Below are positions 6,820-42,944 of a DNA stretch of 51,794 nt, one piece after another. The first letter of the stretch is position 1; every line of letters begins with the position of its first letter. The translations under genes and the position numbers were made by a program. The stretch covers positions 1 through 51,794 of the IMG/VR virus record IMGVR_UViG_3300025000_002018. The stretch is one strand, 5' to 3'. Origin of the DNA: a virus. A model generated the notes under the pieces. The model made no database searches. It worked only from the letters and a program-made list of their open reading frames with translations, and had not been told where the DNA came from.

Positions 6820-8128
6820 ATTTCGCCTCTTTTATTTTATCTAATAATATTTCTCTTTTATTTTCTATTTCTTCATTTATTACCATATCAAATAAAATGT
6901 TTAAAATATCACCCACTTGTTTTGATGGAGGGATATTTAATATTTTCATAACATCAGTTCCATCAATTTCAAGCATTTTCGGACTCAATGGAGGTTTTTC
7001 ATTTATAACTTCCATAAATCTTCTATATAAACACCATTCGACAAAAAACTCACTATTATATAAAACATTACCTTTTTTATCAGCATATCTTAAATAAATA
7101 AAATCTTTTAAAGGTATATTTTTATCAGATAATTGAGCCAATGTTCTTCTCATGCTTTTTTTACCAATAACATGATTCATATGAAATAAACTTAAATATT
7201 TAACATAATCAACAATATCGTTAGGAAATTTTAAATGATTTTTTAAATCATCAACAATATTATCTAAGCCTAAAGTATTATGTCCACAGAAAGTATTAAA
7301 TCCTTTATCATTAATAATAGGCGAATGTTTTCCAGCATCATGATAAAGACAGGCTAATTTCAACTGCCAATTTTTATCTTCAACAGCTTTAACAGCACCT
7401 AAAGAATGAGTAAATACAGTTTCATTATGATAACCGCCACCATCTATTCCTTTTAATTTAAATATACTTGGAAATAATATTTCAAACATTTCCATTTCAT
7501 CTAACATTGTTAAGAATCTATGCGTATTATCTGTTTTAAAGGCTTTAATAATTTCTAACTGTAATCTTTCTTTAGGAACATCTTTTAATTTATTCCTACA
7601 CTCAATCATAGCAAAGTAAGTTTCTTTTTCGATAGTTAGATTATATTTAGATGCAAATCTAACACCTCTAAGTATTCTTATCGGGTCTTCTTCTATTCTT
7701 TGCCATGGATTGCCTATAAATCTAAGTATTCTATTATTAATATCATCAATACCGCCAACATAATCTAATATTTTTTTACATACAATTCCATAACCCATAC
7801 CATTTATGGTAAAATCTCTGCGTAAAATATCTTCTTCTAATGTTTCTACTGGAATTGCATTTTCTGCATTATCTTGTCTATATGTTGCAACTTCAATTCC
7901 ATCAATTAATGAAACTAAAAAACTATTTCCTGCTATTTTTGCTTGTGGGAATAATGTAATAATATTATCTGGAGTAGCAGATGTAACTAAATCAAAATCT
8001 ACAGGCTGTTTACCCATCATATAATCACGACAAGCACCGCCAACAATAAATACTTCATAATTATTAGCTTTTAATATTCTCATTATATTTTTTATATTAT
8101 CTGGTATTTTCATTTTATTATAACTCAT
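6812..8128 (-). CDS. cca: CCA-adding tRNA nucleotidyltransferase with HD domain
   Basis: A class II tRNA nucleotidyltransferase/poly(A) polymerase homologue (438 residues) that would add or repair the CCA end of tRNAs. Visible motifs are FIVGGACRDYMMG and DFDLVTSATP (nucleotidyltransferase core), EEDILRRDFTINGMGY, then IEEDPIRILRGVRFASK (neck). An HD phosphohydrolase domain with KLACLYHDAGKHSP lies near residue 265. The gene overlaps the macro-domain gene upstream by 11 bases. In phages this enzyme is expected to maintain or repair tRNAs, possibly ones damaged by host defence (inference). Confidence 0.93.
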   Translation of the reverse strand: MSYNKMKIPDNIKNIMRILKANNYEVFIVGGACRDYMMGKQPVDFDLVTSATPDNIITLFPQAKIAGNSFLVSLIDGIEVATYRQDNAENAIPVETLEEDILRRDFTINGMGYGIVCKKILDYVGGIDDINNRILRFIGNPWQRIEEDPIRILRGVRFASKYNLTIEKETYFAMIECRNKLKDVPKERLQLEIIKAFKTDNTHRFLTMLDEMEMFEILFPSIFKLKGIDGGGYHNETVFTHSLGAVKAVEDKNWQLKLACLYHDAGKHSPIINDKGFNTFCGHNTLGLDNIVDDLKNHLKFPNDIVDYVKYLSLFHMNHVIGKKSMRRTLAQLSDKNIPLKDFIYLRYADKKGNVLYNSEFFVEWCLYRRFMEVINEKPPLSPKMLEIDGTDVMKILNIPPSKQVGDILNILFDMVINEEIENKREILLDKIKEAKYD

Positions 8129-8594
8129 ATACTAATACTTCAAAATCTTTTAATTCTTCTTCTATAATTCTTTCTATAATATTCCAATCTCCACCGCCTA
8201 AACCAGCACCTATTTTTGGCATAGCGATTTGACTTATATTATTTGGTTCATTATACCAATCTTTATATTTTTTACAATATTTAGGAATATATTTAAAACA
8301 ACTTCTAAGAGCTGGATAACTTACATATTGTTTGCCATCTTTCCCATAATATTGTTGGGTTATTGCATTTAATATATGTATATTTTTATTATTTTCTCTT
8401 GTTCTTACTGGAATAACATTACCTAAATATAAAAGTCCACATTCATATTGTTCTCTATAATATTTATAAGCTAATGGGTATTTATTTTTAATAGTTAATG
8501 CGACTCCAGAACCCATTACTCCTTGAGCATTACACCCATGGACTATAATATTTACATCTGTTTGTAATAAATCACCTTTAATATATGTAATCAT
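8118..8594 (-). CDS. macro-domain protein (ADP-ribose binding or processing)
   Basis: A 158-residue stand-alone macro domain. Family signatures are YIKGDLLQTDVNIIVHGCNAQGVMGSGVA at the N-terminus (quoted here only for its GD, H-x-C-N and GSG residues) and IAMPKIGAGLGGGDW near the C-terminus. This resembles Appr-1''-phosphatase/TARG-like proteins that bind ADP-ribose, hydrolyse ADP-ribose-1''-phosphate or remove ADP-ribose from macromolecules. Its neighbour is the CCA enzyme, which hints at tRNA or NAD+ metabolism. It has its own promoter at 8629-8656. Confidence 0.92.
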   Translation of the reverse strand: MITYIKGDLLQTDVNIIVHGCNAQGVMGSGVALTIKNKYPLAYKYYREQYECGLLYLGNVIPVRTRENNKNIHILNAITQQYYGKDGKQYVSYPALRSCFKYIPKYCKKYKDWYNEPNNISQIAMPKIGAGLGGGDWNIIERIIEEELKDFEVLVYEL

Positions 8595-13343: not shown

Positions 13344-14753
13344 TTATTTAATGTTTTCTAAAATATCTGCAATATCTTTATCGTCTCTTATTTCTACCCA
13401 TACAGGATGATTTAAAGTATATATTACTTTATCTTGTCCTAATTTTTTTTCATTATATTCTACACATAATATTTTATTTAAAAATTCTTCTTTATGATTC
13501 CAAATATATTTACATAAATCTGGAGTTCTTGGTTTAACATTTACAAATAATTTATTGTCAGAAGATTTGCAATATACAGCTCCACAGGCATTTTCTAAAG
13601 CACCCTTACCTTCAATAAAATCTATTATTTGTAAATCACAATCTTCTTTAGCTTTAACTTTAAATGCAGAAGATTTTGTATCTTTCCAAATAGAATCATA
13701 ATTTTTAATTACAAGTCCTTCTTCTTTTCTTTTTATAACTTCATTAAAATATTCCATTATTTCTTCATAACTATTACATATTCTATGCTCTGGAATACTG
13801 ATATGTTCAAAATCATAATATTCTAATGTTTCAAGCAATAATTTAAATCTATCTACACAAGGTAATTTAAATTCTTTATTAATAAAATTATGCCAAGGTA
13901 TAAAATCCCAAATTTTATATACAATATATTCATTTAAATATATTGGTCTTTTTTCATCTCTTAATAGACCATTACCTATTTCTCTTGCCAAATATTCTTT
14001 ATTTAAAGATTGTTCATGTCTTAAAGCTTTAATTTCATCTTCATCTTTTGTTTTAGATAATAAATATCTAAATACTTTTTCTTCTGCTAATATTCTTATC
14101 TCGCCAGTAAATACTAATTTATCATAGCCAAATGTTATAGCAAAATTTACTAATTCTTCATCTAATATATTTCCTAATGCTAAAGGTTTACCTTGTCTTG
14201 ATATATATTGTACTTTAGCAGGAACTAAATCTATAATAGCATTACAAAATAATCCATCTTCTTTCATTTGCGCAAGACATGGATATTTAATTTTGTTTAT
14301 ATTTTTTTCACTTAATCCAGTTGCTCCAAGATAAGGATAATCAAAACTAAAATCATTCCAAACTTTATTAAAAGTAGAAATATCACAACCAAGATGAAGT
14401 GTTTTAAATAAAATGCCCTTGCAAAGTTCTTGTTCTGATTCGCTATTTAAAGATTTAATAAATAAAAATATTTTAATAACATCTTCGTTTTTTGCAGCTT
14501 TTAAACAACTTAATTTATCTAATAATTCTTTAAAATTTTCCCATATTAAATATTGTTTCTGAACAGAATATGCTTTCCCTTCTAAACATTTATTAAATTT
14601 AGCTTCTTTTATTCCATATTGAAAATTAGGATTATATGTATAAAATAATATTTCTTTAAGCAAATCATTATAGCTATTTGTTTTTAAAAATTCAATAGCA
14701 TCATTTCCAGAAGTTTCTCTTAAAATATTTAATATTTCAATTATATTATTCAT
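13344..14753 (-). CDS. ATP-dependent DNA ligase
   Basis: Seals nicks in DNA using ATP. The adenylation domain shows motif I as QMKEDG (nucleophile Lys near residue 164), then GEIRIL (motif III region), EGLVIKN (motif IV) and FKVKAKED (motif V); an OB-fold C-terminus follows. The N-terminal 150 residues are helical, as in T4-type ligases, and the length (469) fits. The start is the ATG at 14753, which has AGGTG upstream; a GTG four codons earlier is less likely. It overlaps the SpeD-like gene by eight bases. Confidence 0.92.
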   Translation of the reverse strand: MNNIIEILNILRETSGNDAIEFLKTNSYNDLLKEILFYTYNPNFQYGIKEAKFNKCLEGKAYSVQKQYLIWENFKELLDKLSCLKAAKNEDVIKIFLFIKSLNSESEQELCKGILFKTLHLGCDISTFNKVWNDFSFDYPYLGATGLSEKNINKIKYPCLAQMKEDGLFCNAIIDLVPAKVQYISRQGKPLALGNILDEELVNFAITFGYDKLVFTGEIRILAEEKVFRYLLSKTKDEDEIKALRHEQSLNKEYLAREIGNGLLRDEKRPIYLNEYIVYKIWDFIPWHNFINKEFKLPCVDRFKLLLETLEYYDFEHISIPEHRICNSYEEIMEYFNEVIKRKEEGLVIKNYDSIWKDTKSSAFKVKAKEDCDLQIIDFIEGKGALENACGAVYCKSSDNKLFVNVKPRTPDLCKYIWNHKEEFLNKILCVEYNEKKLGQDKVIYTLNHPVWVEIRDDKDIADILENIK

Positions 14754-15249
14754 ATAAATCTTCACCTACTATATTTTTATCAGTATATCTTTCTATAATT
14801 CTATAAACAATTGATTCTACATCCCAATATTTTTTAGTAAATTCTATAACATCTTTTATAGGAAAATCTTTACAAGAATATAAATCTATTGTTATAAAAT
14901 TTTCAAAAGCCCAACAATGAATAGCCGAATGAGATTCACACCAAGTAATAGTTCCAGTACAACCACTTATTTCATTTTCTCTGGCAACTATTCTATCTCT
15001 CATTTTTTTAACTATAGGATGTTCTTTTAATCCAGCATTTTCTAATTCATCTGTATATGAATCAATTTCATTAGCAAAAGGAAGATTAAAAACTCTTGGG
15101 GCTTCCATAGCAGTCATTTTTGCTACTTTAGTTACATCTCTTAAATATTTATCAGTATGTTTTATATTAGATAATAGATGTCTATTTTCTTCTTTAGTAT
15201 TAACTTGTATTATGATATGGTCGCCTGTATATAAACTTTCTTTTGCCAT
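14746..15249 (-). CDS. SpeD-like pyruvoyl-dependent decarboxylase (AdoMet decarboxylase family)
   Basis: A 167-residue protein with the self-processing signature of class 1B AdoMet decarboxylase. CESHSAIH carries E105-S106-H107 and H111, and IDLYSC carries C126. Spacing from the Ser to the His (5) and to the Cys (20) equals that known for bacterial SpeD (S63, H68, C83). The N-terminal part has GDHIIIQV, as in the family. An insertion of about 40 residues precedes the cleavage site. It would make a pyruvoyl enzyme acting on AdoMet, or, as reported for some phage SpeD homologues, on arginine or ornithine. No spermidine synthase is seen here. Confidence 0.83.
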   Translation of the reverse strand: MAKESLYTGDHIIIQVNTKEENRHLLSNIKHTDKYLRDVTKVAKMTAMEAPRVFNLPFANEIDSYTDELENAGLKEHPIVKKMRDRIVARENEISGCTGTITWCESHSAIHCWAFENFITIDLYSCKDFPIKDVIEFTKKYWDVESIVYRIIERYTDKNIVGEDLYE

Positions 15250-18249: not shown

Positions 18250-19068
18250 CTATTCTTTTGCATCAACTATTGTAGCACCGCCACCAATAACTTTTGCTCC
18301 TAATGGATAATGTCCATCCCATTTATCTATTTCATTAAGTCTTAAAACTGATGGTGACTTAGCAATAGCTTGCGCTTTTATTGTTAATGCTCTTGCTTCT
18401 CCTTCTGCTTTTGCAATAGAAGATTGCGCATCTACTCTAGCTTGTTGTAAAACATATTCTGCTTTTTGAGCATTTTGTTGAGCAACTTGTTTTTCTTTTA
18501 TAGCTGTTTCATATTGGTCATCAAAATCTACATTTGTAATAGGAATATCAATTACTTTAATAGCAGGTTTTTTTGTTTGGTCATTAACTACCGCTAATTT
18601 TGCAGCTTCCACTACTTCTTTTCTAATTTTTTCTCTATTAGTAACAAATTCGCTTGCTGTATATTTTCCAGCTACAGCCTTAAAAGTGTCCATTATTTTA
18701 GATTGAGCAAAATTAGCATATGGTTGTGAATTATATGTTATTACAGTATTAGCAATATCATCTAAAGGATATGTAGCTATAACATTAAATTTTACATCAA
18801 TAGGCTGATTATCTTTTGTATATGCTAATGCTTCTTCATTGATAGTCCATGGCTTAACATCTACATTAATAACAGAATCAATAAATGGTGTTCTAAAGTG
18901 CATACCTTCATTAATAACTTCTTGTTTTACAACACCAAGGCTTTTAACTACAGCTTTTTCTCCAGATTGTACAAAATAAACAGGGTTTAATGTTATAGCT
19001 GCAACAACTATCGCTATTACTGCTATTATACCTACTACTTCTCCTTCGCCTTTTCTTTTTTTAAACAT
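18250..19068 (-). CDS. SPFH/prohibitin-family (HflC-like) membrane protein
   Basis: A 272-residue SPFH/Band-7 protein. After a basic start (MFKKRKGEGEV) comes one transmembrane helix (about 11-32), then the SPFH domain (YFVQSGEKAVVKSLGVV, GMHFRTPFIDSVINVDV, FNVIATYPL) and a C-terminal coiled coil (QVAQQNAQKAEYVLQQA, AKAEGEARALTIKAQA). Host HflK/HflC of this family restrain the FtsH protease and scaffold membrane domains; a phage copy could tune FtsH or protect the membrane (inference). The start is set by GAGGT before the ATG at 19068; upstream in-frame codons belong to the overlapping previous gene. Confidence 0.9.
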   Translation of the reverse strand: MFKKRKGEGEVVGIIAVIAIVVAAITLNPVYFVQSGEKAVVKSLGVVKQEVINEGMHFRTPFIDSVINVDVKPWTINEEALAYTKDNQPIDVKFNVIATYPLDDIANTVITYNSQPYANFAQSKIMDTFKAVAGKYTASEFVTNREKIRKEVVEAAKLAVVNDQTKKPAIKVIDIPITNVDFDDQYETAIKEKQVAQQNAQKAEYVLQQARVDAQSSIAKAEGEARALTIKAQAIAKSPSVLRLNEIDKWDGHYPLGAKVIGGGATIVDAKE

Positions 19069-19087
19069 AATTTTACCTCTTTCTAAT

Positions 19088-19477
19088 TTATTTATTATTA
19101 CAAACAACTTGTTTAAATTCTTCAACCGTTGCCATATCGCAATGACTTTTATTTTGCTTAAGAAATCCTGTTGCACCTGTGATTGTTCCATCTTCATTAA
19201 AATTATTACATAATCCTTTTAACTCTGATGTTGTTAAAAATACAAGTTCATGATTATCGTCTTCAATAAAAGCAGAATACCAATATGAACCACCTTCTTC
19301 ATTTTTTGTAGATACATCTTCAAGTTGAGTAGAACTTGAACCTTGTGTTACATAAACAATTCTTTCTGTTGATGAAGGAGTGTTTATATGTTCTTCTTTA
19401 TTTTTTGGTAGAAATATAATCAAACCTATAATTAAGGCTATTATTATTATTAAATAATCAGTTTTACTTATTTTCAT
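19088..19477 (-). CDS. membrane-anchored protein next to SPFH gene (129 aa)
   Basis: A single N-terminal transmembrane helix (about residues 8-24, YLIIIIALIIGLIIFLP) is followed by a Ser/Thr-rich spacer and a soluble domain with three cysteines (GLCNNF, HCDMA, VVCNN), probably outside the cytoplasm. Its last codons lie 19 bases before the SPFH start. The adjacent gene order suggests the two membrane proteins work together. The family is not recognised. Confidence 0.7.
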   Translation of the reverse strand: MKISKTDYLIIIIALIIGLIIFLPKNKEEHINTPSSTERIVYVTQGSSSTQLEDVSTKNEEGGSYWYSAFIEDDNHELVFLTTSELKGLCNNFNEDGTITGATGFLKQNKSHCDMATVEEFKQVVCNNK

Positions 19478-35557: not shown

Positions 35558-36590
35558 ATTAGTTGTACTTTTTCTACAATATGATTCAGATAAGTATCCA
35601 AATTCTTTATTTTATTTACAAAAATATTTAAGCAGAATAAGTCAAAATGATGTTCAAATAATAGTTATAGATAATAAGCAAAAAGTAAATTATAAAGAAA
35701 GAATCGAAGATTATTATTATGGCGAACCAATTACAATATCAGGAGACAATACTATTTGGGAGTTTTCAGGATGGGATAAAGGATTAGAGTATCTTAAAGA
35801 AAATAATATTGATTATGATGCAATACTTTTTGTAAATGATTCATTTTTAGCTCCATCAGGTTATGATTCTCCAATAACAATAATAAATGATGAAAATATA
35901 TTTGATTGTATAAAAAACAACAACATTATCGGAAATATATGTAATGTAGGAAATGGATTTAAAATAGATAAATATAATGTAAAAAAATATATAAGGACTC
36001 ATTGCTTTATGCTATCTAAAGACTCTGTTGAAAAGATAAAGACTCTTGTGACTTTGGATATTAATTTTATTAACAGATGTATAAATAATATTTCAACTAA
36101 GTTCTATTTCTTAGGTAAGGCTCCAATTTGTATAGACACAATGAAGAATATTGTCGTTAATTTAACTCAAAATTGGCATAGCAAATTCAATATTCATGAT
36201 AATTGGGGATTATTTAGAATGAAATCCTTAGTAATGCTTAATGAATTAACATTATATACAAGAATATCCAGTATAATAGGAGATAATAAAGTACAAATGA
36301 ATATAAAAGAGCTTATAAACAATATTCCAAATGATAAAAAAATAGTATGTGTGGGAGCTGCAACAAATGCTCACAAGATGATGAAGGAAAGTGACTTACC
36401 AAAGAAGAATGTGGTTGCATTTCTGGATAACTACATTAAGGGAGATATTAATGGAATACCAATATATACACCCGAAGAGTTCGTTAATAAAAAGATAAAT
36501 TATGACTTTGCAATTTTTTGTATGTTCCAACCAGAAACGATTAAAAATCAATTAGATAGCTTAGGAATTATAACAAAAGATGAATATTGA
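35547..36590 (+). CDS. RgpF-like transferase with C-terminal nucleotide-binding-like domain (347 aa)
   Basis: Paralogue of 32078: KLVVLFLQY, SGDNTIWEFSGWDKGL, YDAILFVNDSF and WHSKFN are shared. An extra C-terminal domain (about 245-347) starts with KKIVCVGAATNAHKMM and contains VVAFLDNYIKG and IPIYTPEEF. It resembles the C-terminal domains of sugar C-methyltransferases and similar Rossmann modules. Likely a bifunctional glycan-modifying protein; its substrate is unknown. It overlaps the genes on both sides by about 11 bases. Confidence 0.65.
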   Translation: MYYKLVVLFLQYDSDKYPNSLFYLQKYLSRISQNDVQIIVIDNKQKVNYKERIEDYYYGEPITISGDNTIWEFSGWDKGLEYLKENNIDYDAILFVNDSFLAPSGYDSPITIINDENIFDCIKNNNIIGNICNVGNGFKIDKYNVKKYIRTHCFMLSKDSVEKIKTLVTLDINFINRCINNISTKFYFLGKAPICIDTMKNIVVNLTQNWHSKFNIHDNWGLFRMKSLVMLNELTLYTRISSIIGDNKVQMNIKELINNIPNDKKIVCVGAATNAHKMMKESDLPKKNVVAFLDNYIKGDINGIPIYTPEEFVNKKINYDFAIFCMFQPETIKNQLDSLGIITKDEY

Positions 36591-37200
36591 TAAAAATAAT
36601 ACCCTCATTATATTTAGTACAGGCGATTCTAATTATAATGAATTAAAAGAACATATTATCCCTTTACAGCAAAGTTATGATACGTTGGGTCTTAATATGT
36701 TTAATTGTTTCCATTATGGCTGTACATATTGGAATTGGAATGATAGATTTTTATTTAGAGATTGTTTATATGAACATTATATAGAAATAGAAGACAATAA
36801 AAAGCCTTTATTAGTTACTACAGACGAAGTAACTAAAAGAGAATTTATTAATAATAATATAAAACCATATTATACTTATGAAGCAACAACAAAATATATA
36901 CCTACAAATAAAGAGGATAATAAATTATATATATTTAAAGCCAGTTTGCATACAGCCATTAATACAGCCATTGTTGAGGGTTATAAGAATTGCATTATAT
37001 TATTTGCTGATTTATCTTATGATAAGCATGCCCATTTTTATGATTCAGAAGAAACAAAAAATAAGATGCAACCAAGACCAACTAAAAGATTAAATATAAT
37101 GAGAGAATCTTTATATAATTTTAAACAATATGCAAATATTTATAAAACAAATCATAATGATTTAGATTTAGAATATATTGATATAAAAGAAATTATATAA
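36580..37200 (+). CDS. putative glycan-cassette protein (206 aa), full-length copy of a duplicated gene
   Basis: Not a family I can name. It has a Rossmann-like start (NTLIIFSTGDSNYNEL), a Trp/Tyr-rich segment (CFHYGCTYWNWNDRF), LVTTDEVTK, and a middle part with HTAINTAIVEGYKNCIILFADLSYD. The layout suggests a small glycosyltransferase-like protein that closes the glycan cassette. A shortened copy lies at 42534. The two share 51 identical bases (36694-36744 with 42651-42701) and 53 identical bases at the 3' end (37141-37193 with 42885-42937). Confidence 0.65.
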   Translation: MNIDKNNTLIIFSTGDSNYNELKEHIIPLQQSYDTLGLNMFNCFHYGCTYWNWNDRFLFRDCLYEHYIEIEDNKKPLLVTTDEVTKREFINNNIKPYYTYEATTKYIPTNKEDNKLYIFKASLHTAINTAIVEGYKNCIILFADLSYDKHAHFYDSEETKNKMQPRPTKRLNIMRESLYNFKQYANIYKTNHNDLDLEYIDIKEII

Positions 37201-37215
37201 AAAGGAGAATATTAA

Positions 37216-38130
37216 ATGTATCTAATACATAATAGTAACATAAATTCATATTTTACAATTAATAAAAAAGATAAAATGGCATTTTTATCTTTAATTGATA
37301 ATTTTTTTGAAGATGATGATAACGTATTTAGAATAATTTATGATAAAGACGAATTAAATAAAATATTAAATGATAGATTTTTATCAAAAAACAGGGGAGA
37401 AAAATATAATGAAGAATATACATCTGTAACAAAAATAGTTGGAGATTTATTCCCTATGGATTTGGATAAGTCCAGAGGATTAATTTATTGGGCTAAAAAT
37501 ATATCTAAAGAAGATTATGCTTTACAACAAGAAATAAATGAAGAATGTCAAAATAAAGGAACATATCTTCATGCTGTAATTGAACATATTTTAAAAGATA
37601 AGAAACATTATTCTTTAAGAGATATTCAAAGTCATATAAATAATCAAGCTGTAGAACAGAATCAATTATGCTCTAAGGCATTATTTGAATATCCGAAGTA
37701 CAAAGACAAGGGAAAAAATAATTGGCTCAATAACGAGCTTCCATATATTGATACTATTTATTCTGAATTATTTATAAAAGATGATGAGCTTGGATTACAG
37801 GGAACTTTGGATGGTTTATTAATTTATAATAAAATTTTAACATTATGGGATTTAAAATCAACATCTAAAATTGATAAAAAAACACAAAAAGGTGTTCATA
37901 AAACTCCAAGTACAATGAATAATTATCATAGACAATTAGCAATGTATTCTTATTTATTAGAAAAACATGGATATATTACTAAAAAAGAATTTCAAGATTT
38001 GGCTTTTAAAATAGATTGTTTCCATTGGATAAGAGAAGATTATAGGCAATATGATTTTGAAAACGCATATATATTAAGTTTAATTGAAGATATTTTAAAA
38101 GTTACTGAATGGTTTAATAATAGTAAATAG
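37216..38130 (+). CDS. RecB/Cas4-like PD-(D/E)XK nuclease
   Basis: A 304-residue protein with the RecB-type active site. GLQGTLDGLLIYN supplies the Asp, TLWDLKSTSK the D-x-K block, and YHRQLAMYSYLLE is the Q-x3-Y motif IV. An upstream His (TYLHAVIEH, about residue 120) fits the family's motif I. Such phage enzymes process DNA ends in recombination or degrade host DNA. AAGGAG precedes the ATG. No cysteine cluster for an Fe-S centre was seen, unlike true Cas4. Confidence 0.85.
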   Translation: MYLIHNSNINSYFTINKKDKMAFLSLIDNFFEDDDNVFRIIYDKDELNKILNDRFLSKNRGEKYNEEYTSVTKIVGDLFPMDLDKSRGLIYWAKNISKEDYALQQEINEECQNKGTYLHAVIEHILKDKKHYSLRDIQSHINNQAVEQNQLCSKALFEYPKYKDKGKNNWLNNELPYIDTIYSELFIKDDELGLQGTLDGLLIYNKILTLWDLKSTSKIDKKTQKGVHKTPSTMNNYHRQLAMYSYLLEKHGYITKKEFQDLAFKIDCFHWIREDYRQYDFENAYILSLIEDILKVTEWFNNSK

Positions 38131-38136
38131 GTAAAT

Positions 38137-38670
38137 ATGGCAATATTTAAAAAGAAAAAAAAGGTCTATAAAAAGACTTTTAATTCTCAAGATATAAAAA
38201 GAATACTATTGAATGAATTTAGATACAACAAAAACTATACCTATGCATGTACAGAATGCGGTAGGTATAGTGCTGATGTTTTATTATATAATATATTTTT
38301 AATAGAGATAGAAGTAAAATGTTCGTTATCTGATTTTTATGCTGATTTTCGTAAAAAGAAACATTTATTATATTTAAGAGAAAGAAGTAATGCTGGTAGT
38401 TATTCTAAAAATATGATTCCTAATAAATTTTATTTTGCTGTTTCAGATAAATTATATGAACCTGTTAATAATTTTTTAAAAGATAATCCACAATTTAATA
38501 AATATGGAATAATAGTAGTTTATCCAAGTGAAAAAATATCAATAAAAAAATCTGCTAAACTTTTGCATTCAGAATCTCCATCTCAAATGATGTTGGATAT
38601 TATGATTAGAAGAATGTCATCAGAAATTTGTGTATTATATAATAAATTGAATGAAGAAACATCTACTTGA
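38137..38670 (+). CDS. MmcB-like putative PD-(D/E)XK nuclease
   Basis: A 177-residue protein. The key blocks are CTECGRYSADVLLYN, LIEIEVKCSLSDFYADF (E-x-K type active site), KKKHLLYL, and PNKFYFAVSDKL followed by YGIIVVYP. This is the pattern of MmcB/DUF-type PD-(D/E)XK proteins linked to DNA repair. Only the family-level fold is inferred. The gene ends at TGA, which is overlapped by the -35 of the next promoter. Confidence 0.7.
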   Translation: MAIFKKKKKVYKKTFNSQDIKRILLNEFRYNKNYTYACTECGRYSADVLLYNIFLIEIEVKCSLSDFYADFRKKKHLLYLRERSNAGSYSKNMIPNKFYFAVSDKLYEPVNNFLKDNPQFNKYGIIVVYPSEKISIKKSAKLLHSESPSQMMLDIMIRRMSSEICVLYNKLNEETST

Positions 38671-38694
38671 TTTTCTTTTATAATATGTTATAAT
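38667..38694 (+). promoter_or_regulatory. sigma70-type promoter for the NAD+/amidohydrolase operon
   Basis: -35 TTGATT (overlapping the stop of the preceding gene), 16-base spacer, -10 TATAAT preceded by ATGT. An AAGGAG site and the ATG at 38718 follow closely. It gives the operon 38718-42.5 kb independent expression. Confidence 0.87.
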
Positions 38695-38717
38695 ATTATA
38701 AAAGGAGATAAAAAATA

Positions 38718-39569
38718 ATGTTAGATTTACATAAAGATTTTGAAATATTTAACTTTCCAGGTGGAGAAGTTAATGTAAGATTAAAAAATTTTCCAACAGA
38801 TGATTGTTTTATTGTAACATTAATAGCAAGATTAAAAAATTCTAACGATATAATGTCATTATTATTAGCTGTGGATGTATTAAAAAGAGAAAATGTTTTT
38901 ATTAATGAATTAATAATACCATATTTTCCATATGCAAGACAAGATAGAGTTTGTAATAAAGGCGAAGCATTATCTGTTAAAGTTATAGCAGATTTAATTA
39001 ATAGTTTAAATATACCAAAAGTAACAATATTAGACCCACATTCAGATGTAACTCCTGCATTAATTAATAATGTAAATATTATTAGTCAAGTAGAATGTTT
39101 TACTAAATCAATGTGGAATTTTGGTAAATCTAATTTAGAAATTAGAAATGATTATTATATTATTTGTCCTGATGCTGGAGCAAGAAAAAGGATTGATACT
39201 ATAGCTAAAGAAGTGCAAACAGATAAGGTTATATATTTTAATAAAAAAAGAGATTTATTAACTGGAAATATTTTAGGGATAGATTCTGAATATCAAAATT
39301 TTAAAAATAAAAAATGTATTATTATTGATGATATTTGTGATGGTGGTCGTACATTTATAGAAATAGCTAAATATTTAAAATCATATGATGCTGATGAAAT
39401 TATTTTATATATTACTCATGGTATTTTTAGTAAAGGTCTTGAATGCTTAAAAGAAGCAGGAATAGATAAAATATTTACTACCAATAGTTATCAAGAAATT
39501 GATGATAGATATTTGAATAAAGGTACGGTTCCTCAAGTTTTACAATATGATATATTTCAAGGAATTTAA
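38718..39569 (+). CDS. prs: ribose-phosphate pyrophosphokinase homologue (NARP1 Adps candidate)
   Basis: A 283-residue PRPP-synthetase homologue, shorter than the usual 310 or so. Motifs: NFPGGEVNVRL, IPYFPYARQDRV (catalytic flexible region), LDPHSDVT (metal binding), CPDAGARKR and the PRPP loop IIIDDICDGGRTF. By itself it would make PRPP. In phages a Prs homologue paired with a nicotinamide phosphoribosyltransferase homologue is the NARP1 layout. There the enzyme (Adps) pyrophosphorylates ADP-ribose so NAD+ can be rebuilt after NADase defence. The assignment is by gene pairing. Confidence 0.88.
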   Translation: MLDLHKDFEIFNFPGGEVNVRLKNFPTDDCFIVTLIARLKNSNDIMSLLLAVDVLKRENVFINELIIPYFPYARQDRVCNKGEALSVKVIADLINSLNIPKVTILDPHSDVTPALINNVNIISQVECFTKSMWNFGKSNLEIRNDYYIICPDAGARKRIDTIAKEVQTDKVIYFNKKRDLLTGNILGIDSEYQNFKNKKCIIIDDICDGGRTFIEIAKYLKSYDADEIILYITHGIFSKGLECLKEAGIDKIFTTNSYQEIDDRYLNKGTVPQVLQYDIFQGI

Positions 39570-39570
39570 T

Positions 39571-39846
39571 ATGATTGGGTATAAAGCTTTTTCTAAAAAT
39601 ATGACAAATAGAAAAGGATATATTTTTAATATAGATAAAGAACTTATTTATCATATTAATAAGCCTATAAAATTAAGAGGAACAGGATTTCATTTTTGTA
39701 AAAATATTTTATCTTGCCTTATATGGTATCAAAATATTTTTAATATTACAATATATAAAATAGAAATTTTAGGAGATGTAATAGATAGTAAATTTACACC
39801 TAAGTCAGTAACTAATAAATTTAGATTTATAGAAAAAGTATTTTAA
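39571..39846 (+). CDS. small DUF7666-like protein (91 aa)
   Basis: MIGYKAFSKNMTNRKGYIF, then GTGFHFCKNIL and VTNKFRF, match a common phage protein pattern (YKxFxxxMxxRxxxY, GxGFHxCxN, SKxxxIxE) annotated only as a domain of unknown function. The start at 39571 is preferred, with AAGGAA upstream and one base after the prs stop. It sits between the two NAD+ genes, so it may be part of that pathway or simply carried along. Confidence 0.6.
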   Translation: MIGYKAFSKNMTNRKGYIFNIDKELIYHINKPIKLRGTGFHFCKNILSCLIWYQNIFNITIYKIEILGDVIDSKFTPKSVTNKFRFIEKVF

Positions 39847-39863
39847 TAAATAAGGAGAAAAAT

Positions 39864-41375
39864 ATGAAAAAATTACCAGCAACATTACTTTGTGATTTTT
39901 ATAAAATAAGTCATAGAGAACAATATGATGAAGACACAGAACAAATTTATTCTACTTGGACTGCAAGAGGTTCAAGAATAGAAGGAATTAATAAAGTTGT
40001 TGTTTTTGGACTTCAAGGATTTATTAAAAAATATCTTATTGATTATTTTAATGAGAATTTCTTTAATCGTTCTTGGCAAGAAGTTGTTTCTGAATATAAA
40101 AGAGTTATTAAATATACATTAAATATTGATAATCCAAGCATACAACATATATGGGATTTGCATGAATTAGGATATTTACCATTATTAATTGAAGCAGTAC
40201 CAGAAGGAACAAAATTACCAATAAGAGTTCCATCAGCAACAGTAAGAAATACACATCCTAAATTTTTCTGGCTAACAAATTTTATTGAAACATTACTTTC
40301 ATGTGAAACTTGGCAACCAACAACATCTGCTACAATAGCGAATAGTTATAAAAATATATTAAAAAAATGGTCAGATAAAACTTGCGATAATGATTACCAT
40401 GTTCCATTTCAAGGTCATGATTTTTCAATGAGAGGTATGCCTTGTTTAGAAGCAGCATGCACATCTGGAGCAGGACATCTTTTAAGTTTTGTTGGAACAG
40501 ATACAATTCCTGCAATATTATATCTTGAAAATTACTATAATGCGGATATTGAAAAAGAACTTGTAGGTACTTCTATACCAGCTACAGAACATTCTGTAAT
40601 GTGTTGCAATGGAAGAGACGAATATAGTTCTATTAAAAGATTAATAACTGAAGTTTATCCAAATGGATTTGTTTCTATAGTTTCTGATACTTGGAATTTA
40701 TGGGATATATTAACAAAAACATTACCAAAATTAAAAGATGAAATAATGAATCGTGATGGTAGAGTCGTTATAAGACCAGATAGCGGTAATCCTGTAGATA
40801 TTATTTGTGGAACAAGAAGAGAAATAGAAACAAGAGAACTTTCAAATATTAATGAAATTAGAAAAGGTGTTATTGAGTCACTTTGGGATGTATTTGGTGG
40901 TACAATAAATTCAAAAGGATATAAAGTATTAGATTCTCATATAGGGGCTATATATGGTGATGCTATCACTATGGAGAGAGCAGAAGAAATATGTAGTAGA
41001 CTTGAAGAAAAAGGATTTGCAAGTAGCAATATTGTTTTTGGCATTGGTTCATTTACTTATACTTATAATACAAGAGATACATTTGGATTCGCTCAAAAAT
41101 CAACATATGCTGTAAAAGGCGGTCAAGAAGTCTTCCTATATAAAGACCCTATAACAGATGATGGTCTTAAAAAATCACAAAAAGGCTTAGTTTATGTTTT
41201 GGATTTAGAAGGGAATATTACATATAAAGATGAATTTAATATACAAGAGCATGAAAAATTACAACCATTTGGACTATTAAGACCTATATTTAAAAATGGA
41301 GAATTATTAGTAGATGAAAATCTTGCAGAAATAAGAAAAAGGGTAGAAGATAATGAATTATTACGATATTCGTAG
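39864..41375 (+). CDS. nadV: nicotinamide phosphoribosyltransferase homologue (NadV/NARP1 Namat candidate)
   Basis: A 503-residue NAMPT-family protein. Signatures: LLCDFYKISHREQY at the N-terminus, TARGSR, VFGLQGFIK, GHDFSMRGM (core), SDTWNLWD, VIRPDSGNPVDI, and YGDAITMERA. Classical members join nicotinamide and PRPP to form NMN. The NARP1 homologue (Namat) joins nicotinamide to ADP-ribose pyrophosphate, giving NAD+ directly. No NMN adenylyltransferase gene is seen here, which fits the NARP1 option. The gene overlaps the amidohydrolase start by 23 bases. Confidence 0.92.
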   Translation: MKKLPATLLCDFYKISHREQYDEDTEQIYSTWTARGSRIEGINKVVVFGLQGFIKKYLIDYFNENFFNRSWQEVVSEYKRVIKYTLNIDNPSIQHIWDLHELGYLPLLIEAVPEGTKLPIRVPSATVRNTHPKFFWLTNFIETLLSCETWQPTTSATIANSYKNILKKWSDKTCDNDYHVPFQGHDFSMRGMPCLEAACTSGAGHLLSFVGTDTIPAILYLENYYNADIEKELVGTSIPATEHSVMCCNGRDEYSSIKRLITEVYPNGFVSIVSDTWNLWDILTKTLPKLKDEIMNRDGRVVIRPDSGNPVDIICGTRREIETRELSNINEIRKGVIESLWDVFGGTINSKGYKVLDSHIGAIYGDAITMERAEEICSRLEEKGFASSNIVFGIGSFTYTYNTRDTFGFAQKSTYAVKGGQEVFLYKDPITDDGLKKSQKGLVYVLDLEGNITYKDEFNIQEHEKLQPFGLLRPIFKNGELLVDENLAEIRKRVEDNELLRYS

Positions 41376-42336
41376 AGAGATTAAAGATTTAGTAAGACAA
41401 AAAGGAGGATTCTGTAATGCTCATTCTCATCTTGATAAATCTTATACTTTAACGAAAGATAATAAAGATATTTGTAATAAACATTTAAAAAATAAATGGA
41501 ATTTAATAGATAGTATAAAAAGAAATAGTACAATATATGATATAAAAGATAGAATAGAATATTCTCTTATAAAACAAACATTATATAATACTCATAATAT
41601 TTTAACATTTATAGATGTTGATAGCGTTGCTAAAAGTACAGGTCTTGAGGCTTTAGAATTAGCTAAAGAAAATTATTTAGCAACGCAAATATATTCTGCT
41701 AATCAAACAATTAAAGGAATATTAAATAAAAAAGAATACGAATGGTTTTTAAAAGGAGCAGAACAATGTGATTTTATAGGAAGTTTACCTAAAGTAGATG
41801 ATAATATAGAATTACATTTAGATATACTATTTGATACTGCTAAAAATTTTAATAAACACATACAAATTCATTGTGACCAATTTTCTTTAATAGAAGAAAA
41901 AGAAACAGAATTAATATTAAAATATATAGATAAATATAATTGGCAAGGCAAAGTATCATTAATACATTGTCTTTCTTTAGCTTCTCAAGAAAAGTCTTAT
42001 AGGTATAAAATATATGAAAAATTAGAAGAAACAAGAACAAATATAATTATAGCTCCATTAATTTGGATTGATACACCAAGAAATGAAGAATTACAACCTC
42101 GTCATAATTGTTTAACTCCAGTAGATGAAATGTTAGAATTTAACATTAATATAGCTATGGGAACAGATAATATTTCTGATTTAAATGGTATGTTGTCAAA
42201 TGGAGATATGATGGAAGAATTAATCTTTTTAATTCGAGCATGTAGATTATATAATAAAATAGAAGAATGTATTAATATAGCCACAATAAATGGTAATAAG
42301 ATTATAAATAATAGATTAAATAATAATATAATTTAA
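41353..42336 (+). CDS. amidohydrolase-family deaminase-like enzyme
   Basis: A 327-residue metal-dependent amidohydrolase of the cytosine-deaminase/TRZ branch. Metal ligands are visible: NAHSHLDKS (H-x-H), HIQIHCDQF, SLIHCLSLAS and MGTDNISD (Asp). Members deaminate or hydrolyse heterocycles such as cytosine, isocytosine or pterins. It is coupled by overlap to the NAMPT homologue. A role in nucleobase or nicotinamide-type metabolism is possible, but the substrate is unknown. Confidence 0.85.
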   Translation: MNYYDIRREIKDLVRQKGGFCNAHSHLDKSYTLTKDNKDICNKHLKNKWNLIDSIKRNSTIYDIKDRIEYSLIKQTLYNTHNILTFIDVDSVAKSTGLEALELAKENYLATQIYSANQTIKGILNKKEYEWFLKGAEQCDFIGSLPKVDDNIELHLDILFDTAKNFNKHIQIHCDQFSLIEEKETELILKYIDKYNWQGKVSLIHCLSLASQEKSYRYKIYEKLEETRTNIIIAPLIWIDTPRNEELQPRHNCLTPVDEMLEFNINIAMGTDNISDLNGMLSNGDMMEELIFLIRACRLYNKIEECINIATINGNKIINNRLNNNII

Positions 42337-42368
42337 AAAGCAAGTTTTAAATATATAAGGAGCTTAAA

Positions 42369-42521
42369 ATGCAAAAGGAAGTCTTTGAAAAAATAAAAGT
42401 GGCTCTTAAACGTATTAACTTTAATGAAGATACATATATTATTTTCCCTGATTCTGATTTTAAAAGATATAAGGAATCAAGTATTGAAGTTTCTCACAAA
42501 AAACTATTTGGATTATTTTAA
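42369..42521 (+). CDS. small hypothetical protein (50 aa)
   Basis: A 50-residue protein starting MQKEVFEKIKVALKRINF, with a perfect AAGGAG site seven bases upstream and normal spacing to both neighbours. Unrecognised; helical N-terminus, basic C-terminus, no cysteine. Part of the NAD+/amidohydrolase transcript. Confidence 0.62.
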   Translation: MQKEVFEKIKVALKRINFNEDTYIIFPDSDFKRYKESSIEVSHKKLFGLF

Positions 42522-42533
42522 TATGGGGGAATC

Positions 42534-42944
42534 ATGCATAATATAACTCCAGATAATACATTATTTATTTTTGGATGCGGAGAATCAAATTATAATGAAT
42601 TGCTACCATATATAGCACATATACAAGCAAATTGGAAAACATTAGGCATGAATATGTTTAATTGTTTCCATTATGGCTGTACATATTGGAATTGGAATGA
42701 TTTATATGTTTGGAGTAGATTTCTTCAAGATAAATATTTAGAAATAGAAGACATAAAAAAACCTCGTCTTGTGACTACAGACGAGGTTAATAAAAAAGAG
42801 GTATTAACATCAAGTATAAAACCATATTATACTTATGATATTATTAGAGAATCTTTATATAATTTTAAAAAACATATTAATATATATAAAACAAATCATA
42901 ATGATTTAGATTTAGAATATATTGATATAAAAGAAATAATTTAA
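42534..42944 (+). CDS. internally deleted copy of the 36580 gene (136 aa)
   Basis: Paralogue of the 206-residue protein at 36580 with an in-frame loss of about 75 residues: KPYYTYD runs directly into IIRESLYNF. N- and C-terminal parts are highly similar, with blocks of 51 and 53 identical bases. The missing part is the segment with HTAINTAIVEGY, so the product is probably inactive. Its coding DNA contains a perfect 10-bp hairpin that fits a terminator for the opposite strand. Its stop overlaps the convergent gene by four bases. Confidence 0.7.
   Translation: MHNITPDNTLFIFGCGESNYNELLPYIAHIQANWKTLGMNMFNCFHYGCTYWNWNDLYVWSRFLQDKYLEIEDIKKPRLVTTDEVNKKEVLTSSIKPYYTYDIIRESLYNFKKHINIYKTNHNDLDLEYIDIKEII
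42754..42788 (-). terminator. Rho-independent terminator for the leftward tail operon, inside a coding sequence
   Basis: A perfect 10-bp stem AACCTCGTCT/AGACGAGGTT (42760-42769 with 42779-42788) has a 9-base loop. On the minus strand it is followed by a T-tract (complement of 42755-42759). It would stop transcripts of the tail genes, whose last gene ends at 42941. In the intact paralogue (36580) the same codons form no such stem. Confidence 0.75.

Follow-up and report, generated by a model that had tools for sequence, protein, structure and literature searches.

A probable phage NARP1 operon with a stand-alone DUF7666 gene and an overlapping amidohydrolase-like gene

The 51.8-kb fragment of an unclassified virus analysed here (25.5% G + C; hereafter the window, meaning the whole stretch) harbors a locus that we read, with a probability of roughly 85%, as a phage NARP1 operon carrying two accessory genes. 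Five plus-strand ORFs follow each other in tight succession at 38718-42521 (Table 1). The four main genes proposed in the initial annotation, namely a PRPP-synthetase homologue (Adps), a DUF7666-like gene, a NAMPT-family gene (Namat) and an overlapping amidohydrolase gene, are all confirmed as ORFs and by family matches. Judged by its sequences, the Adps/Namat pair is a further example of an already known kind, given the identity, motif and contact residues of Namat and the placement of Adps in its tree. The four-gene arrangement including DUF7666 and the amidohydrolase is new and has no second example.

Table 1. Features of the NARP1 locus and its borders (positions in the window)
Feature	Position	Strand	Length and basis
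Duplicate gene, left-hand copy	36580-37200		206 aa; DNA comparison
Candidate sigma-70-type promoter	38667-38694	+	TTGATT-16-TATAAT, TG before the -10; 10/12 matches
Adps-like (predicted ADP-ribose pyrophosphokinase of NARP1)	38718-39569	+	283 aa; family matches, tree, PHSxV motif
Stand-alone DUF7666 protein, possibly ADP-ribosyltransferase-like fold	39571-39846	+	91 aa from ATG 39571; PF24703
Namat (predicted nicotinamide ADP-ribose transferase), NAMPT-family	39864-41375	+	503 aa; identity, motif, contacts, tree
PRK06886-like metal-dependent amidohydrolase (predicted)	41353-42336	+	327 aa; Pfam/NCBIfam matches, alignments
Small ORF	42369-42521	+	50 aa; no family match in Pfam/PHROGs
Duplicate gene, right-hand copy (shortened)	42534-42944		136 aa; DNA comparison

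Organization of the locus

The DUF7666 gene begins one base past the Adps stop; its open frame extends upstream to 39547, the protein length being counted from the first ATG of Table 1. It occupies the 294 nt that separate Adps from Namat; spacings of about 390-2017 nt are among those present in other phage loci. The ATG of the amidohydrolase gene sits 23 nt inside the end of the Namat gene. A bacterial homologue (L184) of equal length, 34% identical and with the same start, aligns Met1 to Met1 with no gap, which supports 41353 as the start. The small ORF that follows is probably part of the same transcript.

The operon had been described as separately promoted. A promoter-like site is indeed present and well placed inside the 47-nt gap preceding Adps, but sites of equal quality occur at chance level in the region (70 vs 66.1 +/- 8.2 in shuffled sequence), so separate promotion is without support. 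The block 37201-42533, which contains NARP1, is flanked by two copies of one gene, which agree at the DNA level by 70% over 260 nt (5' end) and by 89% over 114 nt (3' end). This bracketing fits a putative site of gene exchange.

The Adps and Namat genes

The product of the first gene matches PF13793/PF00156 and phrog_619 (2e-86). In the phylogeny it groups with Namat-linked Adps, and the five housekeeping Prs included, which come from the genomes of bacteria carrying Namat, split off with 100% support; the Adps of SPbetaL1 and the assayed one of Paenibacillus foliorum lie on the side of the window protein. Of the 154 Adps-like proteins, 132 have the pattern PHSxV (PHSDVT in the window), which none of the five Prs shows, and the Prs motif HAxQIQGF is missing from the window protein. 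Identity to the Adps of SPbetaL1, KKP_3916, FADO and KLEB27-3 is only 28-37%, and no Adps structure was present among the PDB sequence matches.

Namat, which matches phrog_448 (2.1e-199) and NF006629, is 62% identical to the characterised enzyme of SPbetaL1, and its best PDB matches, 9w5x and 9w5w, align like SPbetaL1 Namat. The published Namat signature, or SCH motif, is GSX-phi-X-phi-X-phi-TRD with aromatics at positions 3 and 7 (PMC12774641). It is satisfied by GSFTYTYNTRD in the window, these aromatics included. Almost all linked homologues at 165 loci of phages and bacteria follow the pattern; at position 6 the window has Thr and nearly all relatives have Gln. The stacking residue of the SCL loop (Arg, Lys or Tyr) is present as R38, aligned with R40 of SPbetaL1. 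All 20 NAD+-contact residues in the crystal structure of SPbetaL1 Namat are identical in the window protein and the adenine clamp R40/F392/Y396/T398/D400 is fully kept; by residue mapping, the NMN-type phage enzymes deviate at this clamp. Five NAMPT-like phage proteins are separated from all Namat in the tree with 100% support, two of them (phiN3 and BUCT-ZZ01) adjoining an annotated NMN adenylyltransferase gene. The NARP1-like identity that the initial annotation had proposed for the pair is therefore strengthened by the tree splits, the Namat motif and the NAD+ contacts.

Compared with the NARP1 of the Bacillus phage SPbetaL1, the locus has the same Adps-then-Namat order, an Adps-type first gene and a closely similar Namat with the same NAD+ contacts. 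In SPbetaL1, however, Adps and Namat overlap with nothing between them and no amidohydrolase is present, whereas the window has DUF7666 between the two and an amidohydrolase gene overlapping the second.

The trees also hint at a mosaic pair, with an Adps of Bacteroidota type and a Namat of Firmicutes type, but this was not retained (AU p = 0.33, the Namat tree being compatible).

Genes associated with other NARP1 loci

No relatives of the amidohydrolase were found in the flanks examined of 85 phage and 80 bacterial NARP1 loci, and none of DUF7666 in the same set; recurrence of the amidohydrolase beside the pair, which had been set beforehand as a test, was thus not seen. Since neither added gene recurs, the earlier suggestion that they extend the pathway rests on gene order, the overlap and the precedent of RyDEP, macro and NADAR genes, and finds nothing in co-occurrence.

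Other third genes do recur. Within 1.5 kb of Namat in the 85 phage loci, our survey lists macro (14), HAD-like (10), NADAR (6) and Nuc_deoxyri_tr2 (6) genes, the HAD label deriving from a weak Pfam match together with the sequence, and several contigs being near-copies. Macro or macro-like genes lie between Adps and Namat in four loci (L016, L042, L055 and L074) and directly 3' of Namat in three (L032, L045 and L066), several of these viral contigs being unrelated. A short HAD-like phosphatase gene is found between Adps and Namat in seven viral contigs (L007, L008, L012, L064, L069, L076 and L081), and NADAR genes directly 3' of Namat in three, assigned by PF08719 in L035 and by similarity to it in L019 and L052. 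In Bacteroidota genomes (L121-L171) Adps-like and Namat-like genes share one neighbourhood, often with 1-7 kb of genes between them, and bacterial Namat is commonly surrounded by ORFs resembling the Nudix and ADP-ribosylglycohydrolase-like seeds from Paenibacillaceae.

An insertion into a NARP1 operon has been described in mycobacteriophage DyoEdafos, where RyDEP breaks 2'/3'cADPR down to ADP-ribose, from which the pair then makes NAD+ (2026 preprint, PMC13232231). The window resembles it in having a third gene inside the operon. RyDEP, however, is a RyR-domain cADPR glycosidase, whereas the insert here is a predicted DUF7666 gene accompanied by a coupled predicted amidohydrolase.

The DUF7666 protein

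DUF7666 is a common viral domain. In a sample of 88 viral loci (8 plus 80 retrieved, some on the same contigs) it mostly makes up the N-terminal 90 residues of larger proteins (median length 293 aa), in which NSG-type repeats often follow it. The window protein matches PF24703 at 6.9e-16 (59 bits, above the 27-bit Pfam gathering score). It keeps Y4, K5, F7, G39, H41, C43 and Y53, of which Y4, K5, F7, G39, H41 and Y53 are invariant, and lacks two Cys that are otherwise near-invariant (columns 13 and 36). AlphaFold gave a usable model (pLDDT 82), whose matches among viral structures are DUF7666 proteins, pentapeptide proteins, RIIB and repeat proteins of giant viruses. The protein thus shares the predicted fold and the invariant residues of the N-terminal domains of viral repeat proteins and RIIB matches but, unlike those of the repeat proteins, stands alone, with no repeats and with both Cys columns lost; it is a divergent, free-standing version of a domain common at the N-termini of viral proteins. 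In the 88 DUF7666 loci, no Adps, Namat or amidohydrolase was found.

Against the PDB, the plausible Foldseek matches of the model are the ADP-ribosyltransferase Arr (probability 0.60-0.63, TMq 0.47-0.48, E about 0.4) and Tpt1 (TMq 0.47), both with non-significant E-values, and profile comparison with Arr (hhalign) gave no significant match. An ADP-ribosyltransferase-like fold is thus weakly suggested by the model, as a lead only.

Two paralogous small proteins with a CYKxL...GLH pattern are encoded between Adps and Namat in another locus (L082, 2297-2659 and 3129-3497). They resemble DUF7666 by eye, but profile comparison gave no support and they were not retained as relatives.

The amidohydrolase

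The fourth protein matches PF01979 (Amidohydro_1, 1.1e-7) and scores 290 bits with NF005365/PRK06886, below the cut-off of 340 bits, and is therefore a relative of this family and not a filed member. By sequence it belongs within or near PRK06886, an unstudied family for which a literature search found no paper. With members such as the L184 homologue it shares the HxH, HxDQ and GxDN motifs and the lack of flanking beta-sandwich segments; it differs in its sub-threshold score and in its neighbours, the L184 homologue adjoining an ArgG-like gene and not NAD genes. There (L184, 20-2445), the amidohydrolase gene lies directly 3' of the ArgG-like ORF, which by eye has a C-terminal MGS-like domain.

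The nearest solved relatives are CodA and AtzC (E about 1e-15, only 23-24% identity), from which the window protein differs in missing their flanking domains; residue roles in the comparison follow PMC4577212. The metal ligands H24, H26, H173 and D272 and the catalytic H205 (His246/His249 in CodA/AtzC), a set of the CodA-like superfamily, are kept, and the protein is probably an active metal enzyme. The substrate residues differ from those of CodA: in place of Glu217, Asp314 (both catalytic) and Thr66 it has Gln176, Asn273 and Lys29. K29 and N273 are common to AtzC, and the Gln that CodA (position 156) and AtzC (position 160) have in common is unaligned. The AlphaFold model of the amidohydrolase alone reached pLDDT 41 and is no basis for any result.

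PRK06886 is rare in the sampled genomes: in one phylum a single genome of 369 exceeds the cut-off, its member being the L184 homologue, and the 399 genomes from the phylum of genome G001 contain no member. An alignment query, run without a positive control, gave no match at E <= 1e-30 in 297 genomes from the phylum of G002, and a scan of genome contigs with the amidohydrolase as query found none. Viral contigs searched with the protein, an alignment and a DNA motif also yielded no relative, these pattern scans being prone to miss divergent copies, and among annotated phages six records gave distant matches only (21-25% identity).

Possible functions and alternative explanations

NARP1 shows that phages are able to undo NAD+ depletion. 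Once host NADase defences have cleaved NAD+ to ADP-ribose and nicotinamide, Adps would add pyrophosphate to ADP-ribose, yielding ADPR-PP, which Namat would join with nicotinamide; NAD+ would thus be remade with no need of an NMN adenylyltransferase. Accessory cargo of the operon, presumably co-transcribed, would be the DUF7666 protein and the coupled amidohydrolase. Whenever the pair is made, the amidohydrolase would most likely hydrolyse a small N-containing molecule, either a base or a metabolite or signal derived from a base or from ADP-ribose, and might thereby act as RyDEP does in adding cADPR cleavage to another NARP1 operon.

The pair could instead serve ordinary NAD salvage, gene 1 producing PRPP, gene 3 producing NMN, and an NMN adenylyltransferase of the host or an unseen one of the phage finishing the pathway. 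Consistent with this, gene 1 exceeds the cut-off of the general PRPP-synthetase model (157 bits vs 113) and Namat also forms NMN from PRPP in vitro (PMC12774641). Both trees, however, separate the pair from PrsA and from NMN-making NadV with 100% support, the adenine clamp is complete, and scans of window ORFs against Pfam or PHROGs, which covered a fragment record and only part of the short ORFs, showed no NMN adenylyltransferase; this agrees with the absence reported earlier. Trees and residues led us to reject PrsA/NadV salvage, which we regard as highly improbable. A role of the amidohydrolase as a cytosine- or triazine-type deaminase that supplies base salvage is also unlikely, if less so. 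No solved protein is closer to it than CodA and AtzC, and two residues are shared with AtzC (PMC4577212), but identity is low, the Gln common to both enzymes is unaligned, Thr66 of CodA is replaced by Lys29, and the replacement of Glu217 and Asp314 by Gln176 and Asn273 argues by residues against a cytosine deaminase.

Within the NARP1 reading of the pair, the amidohydrolase has about even odds of being functionally linked to it or a passenger. That both DUF7666 and the amidohydrolase are unrelated genes acquired at this place, acting in nucleotide or nitrogen metabolism or without any counter-defence role, has in our view slightly less than an even chance. It agrees with the lack of recurrence in 165 NARP1 loci, with the position between duplicate genes, as expected of a gene-exchange site, with the other nucleotide genes of the phage (thymidine kinase and dUTPase) and with the ArgG-like neighbour, seen by eye, of the L184 homologue in place of NAD genes. 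It is countered by the 23-nt overlap that couples the amidohydrolase to Namat, by the recurrence of third enzymes with ADP-ribose-related folds at NARP1 loci and by the RyDEP precedent (PMC13232231). An extension of NARP1 by the amidohydrolase is plausible, if undemonstrated and unprecedented.

Overlapping genes are frequent in phages, which counts against reading the overlap as a functional link. A more specific proposal, that the amidohydrolase, perhaps with DUF7666, acts on an immune signal derived from ADP-ribose or a base, or on an NAD+ breakdown product, is a long shot, and this type of enzyme is not known from any anti-defence pathway. If true, NARP1 would here be extended to four genes and, besides rebuilding NAD+, would neutralize a defence signal. 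Genes in or beside NARP1 pairs are good search ground for anti-defence enzymes, as RyDEP destroys a defence signal (PMC13232231), and the locus offers two candidates small enough for expression and screening, the PRK06886-like amidohydrolase and the stand-alone DUF7666 protein.

Other genes in the window

PADLOC gave no informative match. A macro-domain protein (PF01661, 1.4e-9) is encoded at 8118-8594 on the opposite strand, about 30 kb from NARP1, where its gene adjoins that of a tRNA nucleotidyltransferase. An S-adenosylmethionine decarboxylase-like protein and an SPFH/Band 7 protein are encoded at 14746-15249 and 18250-19197, respectively.
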